Made by a program: the position numbers and the translations under genes
Shown here: piece after piece, positions 2,153-56,074 of the stretch
How positions within the stretch are numbered: position 1 is the stretch's first letter
Layout of the letters: each line of letters starts with the position of its first letter
Origin: Leucothrix arctica
GTDB taxonomy: Bacteria > Pseudomonadota > Gammaproteobacteria > Thiotrichales > Thiotrichaceae
Reading direction: 5' to 3'
Assembly (NCBI RefSeq): GCF_003172895.1
Contig: NZ_QGKL01000042.1
Span: forward strand, 186,001-250,000
Length of the DNA: 64,000 nt
The notes under the pieces: model-generated
Database searches by the model: none
What the model saw: only the letters and a program-made list of their open reading frames with translations
What the model was told of the DNA's origin: nothing

Positions 2153-3709
2153 CTAAGTACTAGGCAGCGGTGTTTCCGCCTTACCCTCTAAAACCGCTTG
2201 AACCAACGTCCCTAGTAACGTCGCAAAAGGCTCTATATCCTGCTTAGTACTAGCCTCTTCAAGCGCCGTCATGTATTCACTGCGCTTCTCCAAAGGCACA
2301 ACAGTCCAAGGGTAGCCACCACTGGCCAACATCGCATTCATCAAAAAGCGTCCCGTTCGGCCATTACCATCCATATAAGGGTGTATATAAACAAAGATAA
2401 AATGCCCCAGCACGACGCGAACAGCGGCATTTTCTTCGGCTTGTAATAACTCAAAAAAAGCAGGCATTGCATCGCGAACCGCTTCTTTACTTGGCGGTGA
2501 GTGCATGGAGCGACGGATAAAAACGGGGGCAGTTCGATAACCTGCCAGATCAGCAGGTTTGTGAATACCTGCCGTGACACCGGGCGCAAACATTTCGCGA
2601 TACCAGATGCGGTGGTCGTTACCGACGACTTCACCTGCATTATTCCCATCGAGTATTTGCGTGATGCTGTTTCGTACGGCTTGATAAGCTTGCCAATAGC
2701 CACGGGCGGCTAAGGCATTAAACCTTTCTTTATCATCTGCATTTTGCTCTGGGTCCCAGTCTCCTGCACGGACACGGTCGATTAGCTCTGGTGTAACACG
2801 ATAACCTTCAATAGAAAGTGAGTGATAGGCGTCTGTGATATACACATCTTCCACATGCTGCATGTAGGCATTTTTATCGATTGTCTGTGTTGGTGCAGCA
2901 GGGAAGTGTGCAATGACTGTTTCTCGCATGTCTTGCCACATCAGTCGTATACGGTTGACGTAGGGAGATTGCTCGCGCTGAGAAAAGCGTAGACTTGACT
3001 TGGCTTCAAATGGATCTACTTCTCGTACTTCATACCCAACGGCTTGCATCGTACTGACAATATCGTCAGCAGTTTGATTGCGGCCAATATTCCTAAATGC
3101 GCCTGCTAAACGTCCAGCGATAGAACTGTGGCCTCCCTCTAACAGTTGCTCTAAGATTTCTGATGCATCACTAATCATGGATAGTGCGGCGCGCATGTCT
3201 GTTGGGCTTTGCCTAAAGCTGTGTTTGTTACAGGCGATCAAAGCAGCCGGAAGGCTGTATAGGCGCAGCCCGTTTTTGATGATGACTTGAGCGGGTTCTG
3301 GGAGGGCAGCGCGAATATCTAACAGAGACGTGCCATGAGGTAGCATGGTGACATTGTTCCGTGCTTTGGCAGCTCGAACCAGTAGCTGTTTTGGTACGGT
3401 CATGTTCTCAGTATGAAGCGCAATAGATTGCTCAGGTGACAAGCACCAGTTTTCACCTTTTAAGTGATTAAGGTACGCCGCACAAAACTGCCAAAAAGAC
3501 GCATACCAAGCGGTGCTCTCTCCTAGTGTTTCGTCTGGGCGAGCAGGCACGTACCAGCCTTTGATGACTTCTTCTAAAAAACCATTTTTAATAAGGCGTT
3601 CGCGGTGAGTACGCGAGAGTTCAGCAGAGCGTATAGCCACTAGGCCCCTTGTTTGTAGTTGGTGGAGGGCTTCCAGTGAGTTTGCTAACTTTTCTGAGGG
3701 TGTCGCCAT
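2153..3709 (-). CDS. Fic-domain AMP-transferase with N-terminal DNA-binding-type domain
   Basis: 518 residues. The C-terminal Fic domain carries the canonical active-site loop HPYMDGNGRTGR at 443-454; the His is catalytic and GNGR binds the nucleotide phosphates. An inhibitory helix motif SLSIEG at 297-302 fits the S/T-xxx-E-G/N rule of self-inhibited class II Fic proteins, so activity is probably autoregulated. Residues 1-60 look like a winged-helix or AbiEi-type antitoxin domain (AELSRTHRERLIKNGFLEEV followed by GWYV). Fic enzymes transfer AMP to a target hydroxyl; the target here is unknown. Four 24-bp-spaced repeats lie just upstream and may be its operator. Confidence 0.9.
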   Translation of the reverse strand: MATPSEKLANSLEALHQLQTRGLVAIRSAELSRTHRERLIKNGFLEEVIKGWYVPARPDETLGESTAWYASFWQFCAAYLNHLKGENWCLSPEQSIALHTENMTVPKQLLVRAAKARNNVTMLPHGTSLLDIRAALPEPAQVIIKNGLRLYSLPAALIACNKHSFRQSPTDMRAALSMISDASEILEQLLEGGHSSIAGRLAGAFRNIGRNQTADDIVSTMQAVGYEVREVDPFEAKSSLRFSQREQSPYVNRIRLMWQDMRETVIAHFPAAPTQTIDKNAYMQHVEDVYITDAYHSLSIEGYRVTPELIDRVRAGDWDPEQNADDKERFNALAARGYWQAYQAVRNSITQILDGNNAGEVVGNDHRIWYREMFAPGVTAGIHKPADLAGYRTAPVFIRRSMHSPPSKEAVRDAMPAFFELLQAEENAAVRVVLGHFIFVYIHPYMDGNGRTGRFLMNAMLASGGYPWTVVPLEKRSEYMTALEEASTKQDIEPFATLLGTLVQAVLEGKAETPLPST

Positions 3710-3720
3710 TGTGGTTATTC

Positions 3721-3805
3721 TCGCTTATCGTGTTGTTCTTCTATTCGCTTATTATGTTGTATCATTATTCGCTTATTGTGTCGATCCAAAATTCGCTTAT
3801 TGTGT
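3721..3805. repeat. Four direct repeats at exact 24 bp spacing upstream of the Fic gene
   Basis: The core TCGCTTATTGTGT occurs at 3721, 3745, 3769 and 3793. Copies 3 and 4 are identical over 13 bases; copies 1 and 2 differ by one or two bases. The array ends 12 bp before the Fic start codon, covering the expected promoter and leader. On the minus strand the repeats also encode an HNKRI octapeptide repeat in a GTG-started open frame (3715-3915), but a DNA-binding array is the simpler reading. Confidence 0.75.
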
Positions 3806-3924
3806 TTAATCAGGCTTTGGACGTTTTTCAAGCTTGAATAAATAAACACCGCATGATTCACACGTCTTCTTGATACCACCTCACCTTTGTAATTACTTGA
3901 TAATTTGATATACACTTTCTTATC

Positions 3925-5097
3925 ATGCCAACGAGTAAGACTACGATGAACTACCCACCTTCCAAGTTGCCAAACATCGGCACCACGATATTCTCAGTGA
4001 TGTCAAAAATGGCGGCTGACCACCAAGCGATTAACCTGTCGCAAGGTTTTCCTGACTACAATGGCCCGAAAGATTTACTCGATCGCGTGGGCTATCACAC
4101 TGAGCAGGGTGCGAATCAATACCCGCCCATGACGGGCGTGCCGGTATTGCGGGAAGCGATTGTTGACAAGGTGTCGCGTCATTATGGCCGTACTGTTTCC
4201 GCAGAGGACGAGATCACCATCACTTCCGGTGGCACCGAGGCGTTGTTTGACGCGATTACCTGCGTGGTATCGCCGGGTGATGAGGTGATTATCTTTGACC
4301 CTGCCTTTGACAGCTACGTGCCAGCCGTGCAGTTGAATGGCGGTGTGCCAGTGCATATTCAATTACAAGCGCCGCACTTTGGCATCGACTGGGACGTGGT
4401 GAAAGCGGCTATTACCCCTAAAACGCGTTTAATGATTCTGAACTCGCCTCACAACCCGACGGGATCAGTGTTCTCGCAAGCGGATATTGATGCCTTATGT
4501 GACTTGGTCAAAGGCACGGACATCTTGCTGATTTCGGATGATGTTTACGAGCACATTGTGTTTGACGGCCAACAACACCTGAGTTTTGTGAAATACGACG
4601 AGCTTTTTCAGCGTAGTTTTGTCATTTCATCATTCGGAAAAACCTATCACGCAACGGGTTGGAAAGTGGCGTATTGCATTGCACCGCCAGCGCTGACGGC
4701 AGAGTTTCGCAAAGTGCATCAGTTTGTGACATTCACCACGCCGCCCGCGTTGCAGTTGGCCATAGCTGATTACATGCGACAAGCGCCAGAGCACTGTGAT
4801 GAGTTGGCAGGCTTCTACCAAGCGAAGCGCGACTTATTCAATAATGTGATGCAAGACAGTCGTTTTAGCTTTATCCCATCTGGCGGCACGTATTTCCAGT
4901 TGATGGACTATCGCGCCATTCAACCTGACATGAGTGATACTGAGTTTTGTGAGTGGCTTGTGAACGAAAAGGGCGTAGCCGCGATTCCTGTGTCTGTGTT
5001 TTGTAAGCAGCCGCCAGACGCTACGTTGGTACGTTTTTGTTTTGCTAAAAATGATGAAACGTTATTGGCGGCTACTGAGATTCTTAAGGGGTTGTAG
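3925..5097 (+). CDS. ybdL: PLP-dependent methionine-type aminotransferase (YbdL family)
   Basis: 390 residues, fold-type I aminotransferase, closely resembling E. coli YbdL along its length (for example GTTIF, INLSQGFPD, QGANQY.PMTGV, LNSPHNPTG, SSFGKTYHATGWK). The PLP lysine is K239 in SFGKT. YbdL enzymes transaminate methionine and aromatic amino acids with 2-oxo acids. The longest frame starts at ATG 3925, but an in-frame ATG at 3946 matches the usual family N-terminus (PPSKLPNIGTT) and is preceded by a weak GAGTAAG. A small membrane-protein gene begins directly at the stop codon. Confidence 0.92.
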   Translation: MPTSKTTMNYPPSKLPNIGTTIFSVMSKMAADHQAINLSQGFPDYNGPKDLLDRVGYHTEQGANQYPPMTGVPVLREAIVDKVSRHYGRTVSAEDEITITSGGTEALFDAITCVVSPGDEVIIFDPAFDSYVPAVQLNGGVPVHIQLQAPHFGIDWDVVKAAITPKTRLMILNSPHNPTGSVFSQADIDALCDLVKGTDILLISDDVYEHIVFDGQQHLSFVKYDELFQRSFVISSFGKTYHATGWKVAYCIAPPALTAEFRKVHQFVTFTTPPALQLAIADYMRQAPEHCDELAGFYQAKRDLFNNVMQDSRFSFIPSGGTYFQLMDYRAIQPDMSDTEFCEWLVNEKGVAAIPVSVFCKQPPDATLVRFCFAKNDETLLAATEILKGL

Positions 5098-53431: not shown

Positions 53432-54067
53432 ATGACGCATGTTAAGCAGTTTTTGTTAGCAATGCTTATAGTAACGATAGGAGCAAGTAAAGCAATGGCG
53501 ACTGAAGAAGCGATGTATAGAACAGTGCTAAAAGATAAAGGTTTTGAGGTGCGCTTGTATGAGCCTCATATTGTTGCTGAAACGATAGTTGAGGGTGATT
53601 TTTCTGGTGCCGGTAGTAAGTCATTCAATCGACTGTTTAAGTATATTTCTGGTAGTAACAACTCCCGTCAAAAAATCAGTATGACTTCGCCAGTGAGTCA
53701 AGCAGCAGAAAGCGAAAAGATTAGTATGACGTCGCCAGTAGGCCAGCAGAAAGAAGCTGATGGCCGTTGGGCGGTAAGTTTTATGATGCCGGCCTCTTTT
53801 ACAATGGCAACTTTGCCGGAGCCAAAAGATCCCTTAGTTATATTGAAACAAGTACCTGAGCGATACATTGCGACTGTGCGTTACTCAGGACGATGGAGTG
53901 AAGAGCGTTACCTTTACTTTAAGGGAAAATTAGATGCTTGGATTAAAGTAAATAACTTAATAGTAGAGGGAGAGCCAACCTGGGCTCGTTATGATCCTCC
54001 ATTTAAACCGTGGTTCATGAGACGTAATGAAGTGCTAGTACCAATAGTAAAGCCTAAGCTTAAGTAG
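53432..54067 (+). CDS. SOUL-family heme-binding protein, secreted
   Basis: 211 residues with a signal peptide (MTHVKQFLLAMLIVTIGASKAMA). The SOUL domain runs from about 40 to 205: FEVRLYEPHIVAETIVEG, RQKISMTSPV, WAVSFMMPASFTM, ATVRYSGRWSEERY and a C-terminal ARYDPPFKPWFMRRNEV. An internal KISMTSPV-type motif is repeated (RQKISMTSPVSQ and SEKISMTSPVGQ). SOUL proteins bind heme or hydrophobic ligands. There is no obvious partner. Confidence 0.85.
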   Translation: MTHVKQFLLAMLIVTIGASKAMATEEAMYRTVLKDKGFEVRLYEPHIVAETIVEGDFSGAGSKSFNRLFKYISGSNNSRQKISMTSPVSQAAESEKISMTSPVGQQKEADGRWAVSFMMPASFTMATLPEPKDPLVILKQVPERYIATVRYSGRWSEERYLYFKGKLDAWIKVNNLIVEGEPTWARYDPPFKPWFMRRNEVLVPIVKPKLK

Positions 54068-54199
54068 TTGCTGGACGTTAAGACTGCTACGTAGTTTTCA
54101 CAGTTTGATTAGGTACATGTCCTAATGTCTTTCGCTCTTCAAACATTATTATAATTGATCTTCAATACTGAAATTTTATTTAGATATGAGGTGAATGTT

Positions 54200-56074
54200 A
54201 TGAGTGAGGCAATAGAAAAGAAAAAATTTCCCGAAATAGGGATTTGGAAGTTCTTAAACGAAATCCCCGCCGGCACAATGTTCATTCCATTGGTCATAAG
54301 TGCCATCATCGTAACAATGAGCATACATAGTGGTCTAGGAATGTCTTTGTGGGATTACTTAGGTGATCCGATGAAGAGTTTGTTTGGCCCTTCTGGCCAG
54401 ATGCTTGTTATTGGACTTATGTTGTTCTGCACAGGAACAATGATCACTGGTCATGATTTTATTGAAATAGGTGAGCGAGGTATTTGGATTATTCTCGCTA
54501 GATTGATACCCGCTTATGCGATCAGTGCTTTTGTATTTGTTTACTTTGGCCCTAATGGTTTTGCAGGAATCGATGCTATTACTTTAGCTTGTTGCTTAAC
54601 CTCAGCCAATGCTGCTTTATACATGGGAATCATTCAGCCTTATGCAGATGATGCAGATAGGGGAACATTTCCCATTATGCTGATTTTTTCAATGCCTCTA
54701 TTGCCTTTCATATTTCTATCTTACTACGGTAGCGGCGGTGGAGATGCAACTAGTCAGATAATGCAAGTATTCTCATTATTGATTCCATTTTTGCTAGGTA
54801 TTTTGTTGGGTAATCTTGACCCAAAAATCAAACAAGTATTCAAAGGTGGGAACACCATTCTACTACCATTTCTTGGGTTCCAATTTGGATCAACGATCGA
54901 TTTAGTTAAGGCATTTCAGGGAGAAATCATCCTTGTGGCTGTTCTACTTACAGGTATTTACTGGGCAGTAACTATTATTATCCCGTTTATTGTTGGTCGG
55001 TATATCCTAAAGCGGCCAGGTTATGCCTCAATGGGATCTACAGCATTAGCAGGTGTTTCATTAATACTTCCAGCGATGGTTGCGTCATTCACATTTGATG
55101 GCCAGCTTGGGTCAGACATTTCAGCAAATACAGTTTCAATTCTGGCTTTTGTCTTATTGATTACTAACATTTTATCACCATTCTTCACTAAATGGACGAT
55201 GAACTCGTATTTCAAGCATCATAAGGCTGATGCACAACGCGTCTTTTCTGTCACTCATCCAGAATTGTTATCAGCCGTCTATGATGAAAATGGGAATTAT
55301 AGAAACCATCATCATAATCATGACATATTCAGAAAAATATTCCGTAAAAGATCGCATAATGAGGGCGATACCTTAGTACAAGTTTCAACGTTGAATGCCC
55401 TAATGGAGGGTGATTACAGAGGAAGTAAAACGGTTAAAGAGATTTTAAAAGATACTGATACAGGTGTTGGTACATACAATGGGCTTGATGGTGAAGCAAT
55501 CATTTATAAGGGTCATGCTTACGTGGGTAGAGCGACCGGTGAAGTGACTGAAATGGGCCCAGAAGAAACATTCGCATTTTCGTGTACGACAAGGTTTGAC
55601 GAAAGTGTTGATGAAGGGGAAATTTCCTTTGATTCAATTGAGGATTTAAAAGCTAAACTTGAGACATATCTCGACTCACATAACTACTTCTTTATGATTA
55701 AAATGGAAGGCCAGTTCAACGTTAGAATAAGAAGCTGCTTCAAACAAAAAGAACCTTATGAGCCACTATATAAGGTAGCAACTGATCAAAGAGAGTTTGA
55801 ATATAATGAGATTGAAGGTGCTGTAGTTGGTATCTTTTCACCAAACTACGTTGAAGGTATGAATCTTCCTGGATGGCACATTCATTTCTTATCGAGAGAT
55901 CTTAAAAAAGGTGGTCATATTCTAAAGGTTGCTGGTAACAATATTAAAATCAAGGTTAACAAGCTTCAGGCTTGGAAGGTACTGATGCCAGAAGATCCAG
56001 ACTTTAGTAAGTGGAACTTGAAAGAAGATTTACAGGCAAAAACAGAAGCAGTTGAAGGTGCTACAAAGAAATAA
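54200..56074 (+). CDS. Fusion of KdgT-type permease and acetolactate decarboxylase
   Basis: 624 residues from the ATG at 54200 (GAGGTG upstream). Residues about 17-335 match 2-keto-3-deoxygluconate permease KdgT (NEIPAGTMFIPL, PFLLGILLGNLDPKIKQVF, LPFLGFQFGSTIDL), with about ten helices. After a charged, His-rich linker (about 345-387) residues about 390-605 are a full alpha-acetolactate decarboxylase: VQVSTLNALMEGDY, GVGTYNGLDGEAIIY, AVVGIFSPNYVEGMNLPGWHIHFLS. The zinc ligands His560, His562 and His573 keep the exact spacing of characterised BudA/AlsD, and Glu403 and Arg511 are in the catalytic positions. The decarboxylase makes acetoin from acetolactate. One open frame spans both, with no stop. 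Confidence 0.9.
   Translation: MSEAIEKKKFPEIGIWKFLNEIPAGTMFIPLVISAIIVTMSIHSGLGMSLWDYLGDPMKSLFGPSGQMLVIGLMLFCTGTMITGHDFIEIGERGIWIILARLIPAYAISAFVFVYFGPNGFAGIDAITLACCLTSANAALYMGIIQPYADDADRGTFPIMLIFSMPLLPFIFLSYYGSGGGDATSQIMQVFSLLIPFLLGILLGNLDPKIKQVFKGGNTILLPFLGFQFGSTIDLVKAFQGEIILVAVLLTGIYWAVTIIIPFIVGRYILKRPGYASMGSTALAGVSLILPAMVASFTFDGQLGSDISANTVSILAFVLLITNILSPFFTKWTMNSYFKHHKADAQRVFSVTHPELLSAVYDENGNYRNHHHNHDIFRKIFRKRSHNEGDTLVQVSTLNALMEGDYRGSKTVKEILKDTDTGVGTYNGLDGEAIIYKGHAYVGRATGEVTEMGPEETFAFSCTTRFDESVDEGEISFDSIEDLKAKLETYLDSHNYFFMIKMEGQFNVRIRSCFKQKEPYEPLYKVATDQREFEYNEIEGAVVGIFSPNYVEGMNLPGWHIHFLSRDLKKGGHILKVAGNNIKIKVNKLQAWKVLMPEDPDFSKWNLKEDLQAKTEAVEGATKK

Follow-up and report, generated by a model that had tools for sequence, protein, structure and literature searches.

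Why would a permease of the KdgT family and an acetolactate decarboxylase (AlsD) be joined in a single polypeptide? The question is raised by a gene of Leucothrix arctica in a stretch of 64,000 nucleotides, hereafter called the window, for which the open reading frame listing gives one uninterrupted frame of 624 residues, with the permease half followed by the decarboxylase half (Table 1). The listed frame starts at an upstream TTG at position 54155, and the ATG is at 54200. The initial annotation had placed both domains in one gene, and this is borne out by the single open frame, by near-complete Pfam models in both halves, and by two further genomes with the same arrangement. Terminator-like matches around the gene were slightly more numerous than the mean of shuffled sequences (3 versus 1.7), and promoter-like matches were below it (5 versus 9.3). 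The G+C content of the fusion gene is 38.7%, compared with 42.8% for the window and 40 to 44% for four neighbours, and base composition within the window gave no clear sign of transfer. A SOUL heme-binding protein is encoded on the same strand 132 nt 5' of the fusion (53432-54067), with no evident functional link.

Table 1. Features of the fusion gene, in window coordinates
Feature	Position	Strand	Basis or remark
Fused KdgT-family permease/acetolactate decarboxylase gene	54200..56074	+	Single frame; same fusion in L002 and L003
GAGGTG, ribosome-binding-site-like, 6 nt 5' of the ATG	54188..54193	+	Read from the sequence
Permease domain of the KdgT family (residues 15-334) with ten hydrophobic segments and both termini predicted cytoplasmic	54242..55201	+	PF03812, hydropathy, loop Lys+Arg
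Charged, His-rich cytoplasmic tail/linker, residues 335-392, corresponding to the C-terminal tail of unfused permeases that are closer relatives	55202..55375	+	Alignment A1
Acetolactate decarboxylase domain, residues 393-608	55376..56023	+	PF03306, TIGR01252, PDB 4bt2
Codons of His560, His562, and His573	55877..55918	+	Invariant across the 18 rows of A3; putative zinc ligands

The decarboxylase half matched almost the whole of the Pfam family AAL_decarboxy (PF03306; 214.1 bits, residues 393-608, profile positions 2-218 of 219) and passed the cut-off of the NCBIfam acetolactate decarboxylase equivalog AlsD (TIGR01252; 187.6 bits versus 180.65). Seven distinct sequences of solved structures matched the protein, all of them in this half, the best being 4bt2 (E value of 4.3e-39). 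The alignment of AlsD sequences (A3) had 18 rows, made up of the 3 fused proteins, 7 of the 14 pair-encoded AlsDs described below, and 8 solo AlsDs (9 were prepared and L015, whose true start is unclear, was dropped; L020, L023, and L055 were excluded). His560, His562, His573, and Glu432 are invariant across these rows, and Arg511 and Glu619 are nearly so. We take the three histidines to be the zinc ligands and the glutamate and arginine residues to be catalytic. The earlier claim that these histidines lie in a full AlsD domain agrees with the full-length profile match and with the invariance of all three, and this half, judged by its profile and active-site residues, is an acetolactate decarboxylase.

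The permease half covers nearly the whole KdgT profile (PF03812; 227.3 bits over a gathering score of 25, residues 15-334, profile positions 1-303 of 305) and has invariant residues in common with the aligned PF03812 members (11 family members aligned); on this match, it is a KdgT-family protein. The NCBIfam equivalog for the 2-keto-3-deoxygluconate transporter (kdgT, TIGR00793) was failed with 84.3 bits versus a cut-off of 453.8, which rules out KdgT proper; the copy from pair locus L004 scored 119.8 bits. None of the solved structures matched the permease half at an E value of 0.001. Ten hydrophobic segments were recognized, one of them just at the threshold used, and lysines plus arginines number 22 in loops 0, 2, 4, 6, 8, and 10 versus 1 in the odd loops. 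By the positive-inside rule, these charges indicate that both ends of the permease, and hence AlsD, should be cytoplasmic, and a location of AlsD outside the cell was rejected on the same grounds. For the complete fusion protein, AlphaFold2 (alignment A2 of 23 rows) reached a mean pLDDT of 58.6 and a pTM of 0.45; mainly the AlsD core was confident, and the membrane half was too uncertain to inform the topology. Concerning the histidine-rich segment between the halves, which had been suggested to act as a hinge of the fusion, alignment A1 revealed that a DENGNYR-like stretch followed by HHH corresponds to the C-terminal tail of the unfused permeases: of 11 closer permease rows, all but one have HHH, the exception (L006) having a variant, and the tail is absent from four distant permeases. 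Since the same segment already ends stand-alone permeases, the hinge proposal is weakened, and we rejected the notion that the stretch is a feature or by-product of the fusion. The tail may dock AlsD or bind metal.

How widespread is this architecture? The scan of species genomes returned 13 loci with relatives, 2 of which encode the same fusion, in Sulfitobacter marinus (83% identity to the window protein) and Roseibium polysiphoniae (81%). These are the two further genomes found when co-occurrence of the domains elsewhere was looked for. The window's own genome was the only one with the fusion among the 57 searched as relatives (that genome counted) and among 398 genomes sampled from the same phylum, and the Roseibium genome itself was the only one among 289 of its class; all other matches in these searches span the AlsD half only. 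Such rarity leaves the alternative of a common architecture, which the initial annotation had raised, unsupported. Among the three fused genes, pS is at or near saturation (0.74 to 0.94), and pN is 0.11 to 0.12 overall (0.11 to 0.12 for the permease, 0.10 for AlsD, and 0.12 to 0.17 for the linker). A pS at or near saturation with low pN in all parts indicates that purifying selection acts on the permease, the linker, and AlsD. A misassembly, or a recently lost stop codon without functional meaning, might be thought of for a fusion that is very rare among relatives, but its presence in three genomes at 81 to 83% identity, a pS at or near saturation, and the constraint on both halves and the linker make the chance of such an artefact negligible; misassembly as such was rejected because the three genomes are separate.

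No plasmid record covered 80% of the query (425 records matched part of it), none of the 6 pattern matches in viral contigs was a relative, and the comparison of 9.4 kb around the gene with 8 other genomes, looking for an empty site, gave scattered matches in no common order. In Roseibium, an AAA gene, a 460-residue frame without Pfam match, and a transposase-like fragment (labelled by eye) lie 5' of the fusion, which hints at mobility. In Sulfitobacter, 36 nt separate the end of a fumarate-reductase-like flavoprotein gene (L002, 4090-5949) from the fusion, the two being possibly co-transcribed, and a ferredoxin-domain gene is found farther upstream.

Eleven of the 13 scan loci are in records labelled Bacilli, Bacillales, Mollicutes, or just bacterium (L008, whose genome was also drawn in the Bacilli class search). 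In all, the permease and AlsD are encoded by adjacent genes on one strand at 15 Bacilli-like loci, the two genes lying close together or overlapping. The ten aligned with the window protein are 67 to 74% identical to it in the permease and 61 to 69% in AlsD, and the class and phylum searches gave further pairs, one at about 65% (L048, in G643) and three more distant at about 50% (L045, L046, and L059). In L010, L011, and L013, the permease gene runs into the beginning of AlsD, so that the two overlap. In L014 (5998-7161), one or more in-frame stops split the permease gene into two frames, while the AlsD frame is open; this locus, its AlsD included, was left out of the alignments and trees. Of the 15 pair loci, 14 have a divergent regulator gene akin to the one in L004, the contig of L009 ending too soon, and Pfam confirmed a PucR-type helix-turn-helix in all three regulators scanned. 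Upstream of the pair, ten loci carry a dehydrogenase gene (split over two frames in L013), which in L004 belongs to the PRK09423 glycerol dehydrogenase (GldA) subfamily (414.9 bits over 336) and in the other nine is 75 to 97% identical to the L004 copy. The three fused genomes had no GldA-type match at an E value of 0.001, and 5 of the 15 pair genomes had no close one, which counts against the import reading set out below. The two closer pair loci without the GldA-type dehydrogenase, L006 and L014, have a TIR-domain gene just past the PucR-type regulator (3452-4699 in both; scanned in L006, a related frame in L014).

In the phylogenetic trees, the three fused proteins form one clade among the pairs, with supports of 100/100 for the permease and 100/99 for AlsD. 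The nearest pair to this clade was L010 alone in the AlsD tree (97/97) and a group of six including L010 in the permease tree (86/91). Solo AlsDs were represented in the tree by L016, L018, L021, and L044 only, and L047, which has no AlsD, was included in the permease tree only. The patchy distribution and the presence of close kin in distant genomes argue for horizontal transfer, and the simplest history would be one fusion of a coupled pair from a Bacilli-like donor, followed by spread to a few unrelated hosts. The fusion is real, rare, and conserved, and it is related to a more widespread pair of KdgT and AlsD genes.

Where, then, does the substrate of AlsD come from? The search for the large subunit of acetolactate synthase (TIGR00118, cut-off of 538 bits) covered 19 genomes and was positive in 14 of 14 control genomes. 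By this model, a recognizable synthase is absent from 14 of the 15 pair genomes, many of which are metagenome bins and may be incomplete: 13 had no match at an E value of 0.001, and G456 had a weak 32-bit match to a protein that is nearest MenD by NCBIfam. Other thiamine enzymes can make some acetolactate as a by-product. A full-length synthase-like protein of 434 bits, under the cut-off, is encoded in G1211, and G644 carries the permease and the regulator without AlsD; both cases weigh against import. The three fused genomes all have synthases over the cut-off, so it is the Bacilli pairs that carry the argument for uptake. Among a selection of neighbouring genes scanned at the fusion and pair loci, there was no synthase. 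Elsewhere in the window genome, on contig C29 (L069, 1501-4302), an AlsS-like acetolactate synthase gene is directly followed by one for an iron-containing alcohol dehydrogenase, and no AlsD other than the fusion was found in this genome.

In the Bacilli class sample, AlsD was present in 12 of 296 genomes, 8 of them pair genomes and 4 not. These four, together with G1058 from the phylum search, provided a comparison set of five AlsD genes for which no close KdgT relative was detected. A synthase-like gene (300 to 348 bits, none over the cut-off) directly adjoins AlsD in three of the five (G594, G655, and G1058). In G669 and G731, synthase matches reached only 17 to 18 bits, so that lack of a full synthase also occurs outside the pairs; these two genomes have gene neighbours in common with G594, AlsD is split in G731, and the synthase looks to have been lost from the corresponding position. 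The AlsD matches at L095 (6463-7056) and L094 (6677-7402) hold TGA codons and lie near the two neighbour genes of L096 (aldolase-like and DNA-glycosylase-like by eye), with the synthase gone; the AlsD of L095 is split. In this small sample of pair genomes and five comparison genomes, AlsD mostly adjoins either a synthase-like gene or a permease. That no synthase was found in 14 of the 15 pair genomes, while a synthase-like gene lies beside AlsD in three of the five outside the pairs, suggests that the permease takes the place of the synthase in supplying the substrate.

On balance, we favour the explanation that an importer of acetolactate, or of a similar acid, has been joined to a cytoplasmic decarboxylase, a coupled pair of genes being the origin of the fusion. 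The KdgT-type half would bring in 2-acetolactate or a closely related 2-hydroxy-3-oxo acid, for example 2-aceto-2-hydroxybutyrate, and the AlsD half would decarboxylate it at once to acetoin and CO2, using one internal proton. The resulting low internal concentration of substrate would pull uptake forward, and the fusion would hold the decarboxylase next to the imported substrate, a form of channelling. In malolactic fermentation, decarboxylation adds to the proton-motive force; here, the use of a proton and the removal of substrate may give an energy gain of this kind. At ten pair loci, the GldA-type dehydrogenase could take acetoin on to 2,3-butanediol by reduction and so restore NAD+. External acetolactate was seen by 1H-NMR in supernatants of Staphylococcus aureus under nitric oxide (PMC5504149). 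In Serratia, gldA and a butanediol dehydrogenase gene were reportedly deleted to block acetoin reduction (PMC5124605), which supports an action of GldA enzymes on acetoin.

The initial annotation had proposed a carrier with decarboxylation either on entry or before exit, or else a membrane-anchored source of acetoin. Decarboxylation on entry, with acetolactate or a similar acid as the substrate that we infer, is independently supported by the lack of a detected synthase in 14 of the 15 pair genomes and by the cytoplasmic side predicted for AlsD; the exit and anchor versions fit the Bacilli pairs more poorly and draw support from the synthases of the window genome. Developed for the fused genomes, these versions would have the protein handle internal acetolactate, as an overflow valve or a tethered acetoin source whose permease is an exporter or an anchor. 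Synthases in all three fused genomes speak for this, as do the AlsS-like synthase and iron alcohol dehydrogenase of the window genome, whose only detected AlsD is the fusion. We nevertheless regard it as improbable: 14 of the 15 unfused pairs lie in genomes in which no synthase was found, the permease is conserved about as well as AlsD (pN of 0.11 to 0.12 versus 0.10), unlike a mere anchor, and decarboxylation of internal acetolactate would presumably drain branched-chain amino acid synthesis.

It also seems unlikely that the substrate of the decarboxylase has shifted and that both halves act on some other 2-oxo or 3-oxo acid taken up from outside, for instance one from sugar-acid breakdown. 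Such a shift would suit a permease from the 2-keto-3-deoxygluconate family, the weak matches of the L004 regulator to the AdeR, CdaR, and PmfR models, and the separate clade formed by the paired AlsDs, on a stem of 1.98 changes per site for which the tree program warns of long branches. Yet the AlsD half scores over its equivalog cut-off with the six named active-site residues kept, the permease is far from the score needed for KdgT proper, and 10 of the 15 pairs come with a GldA-type dehydrogenase, an enzyme suited to acetoin. Import of acetolactate, or of a similar acid, with decarboxylation on entry is the account that we consider most likely.

If it is true, acetolactate, until now regarded as a metabolite that stays inside the cell or leaks from it, would be a nutrient or an electron acceptor taken up by other bacteria, and a likely substrate would be at hand for those KdgT-family permeases whose branch falls short of the 2-keto-3-deoxygluconate transporter definition. 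Because the fusion identifies importer and enzyme at once, expression of one protein could test both. A more speculative extension, to which we give a minor chance, is a single-chain scavenging module by which non-producers import the acetolactate excreted by their neighbours: uptake and decarboxylation would yield proton-motive force, acetoin would serve as an electron sink on the way to 2,3-butanediol, and the fusion would be the form that crossed phyla.

Literature searches on AlsD with a permease, on its fusion, and on acetolactate transport, in mostly open-access sources represented by titles and abstract openings, gave no description of the fusion, the pair, or the importer. Another AlsD fusion was seen in G039 (L017, 484-2157, minus strand), a 557-residue protein that has AlsD at positions 4-222 and, close to its C terminus, a tetratricopeptide repeat. 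With AlsD/BudA (PF03306, TIGR01252, PDB 4bt2), the window protein has in common the whole domain, the putative zinc-ligand histidines, and the conserved glutamate and arginine residues, but the AlsDs of the fusion and pairs are fused behind or encoded beside a transporter instead of a synthase and form a separate clade. The alsSD and budAB acetoin operons place AlsD beside the synthase that supplies its substrate. The likeness lies in a gene beside AlsD whose product would provide the substrate and in a possible acetoin reductase; the difference is that an importer-like gene occupies the place of the synthase-like gene seen in three of the five comparison loci. Substrate uptake is tied to decarboxylation in malolactic fermentation and in the OxlT/Oxc system for oxalate. 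Carboxylate uptake tied to cytoplasmic decarboxylation, as proposed for the fusion, would be common to these and to the oxaloacetate decarboxylase pump, whereas the fusion is one polypeptide with a zinc-type enzyme of another family. PF03812 belongs to clan CL0064 with OadB (PF03977), the beta subunit of the sodium-pumping oxaloacetate decarboxylase (PMC8562792), and this kinship offers a suggestive but weak parallel to a decarboxylation-driven ion pump. The near-full profile, the ten hydrophobic segments, and the invariant residues are those of the KdgT family, but the fusion permease is far below the TIGR00793 cut-off for KdgT proper and is 24 to 30% identical to four other PF03812 members. 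Both halves belong to known families.
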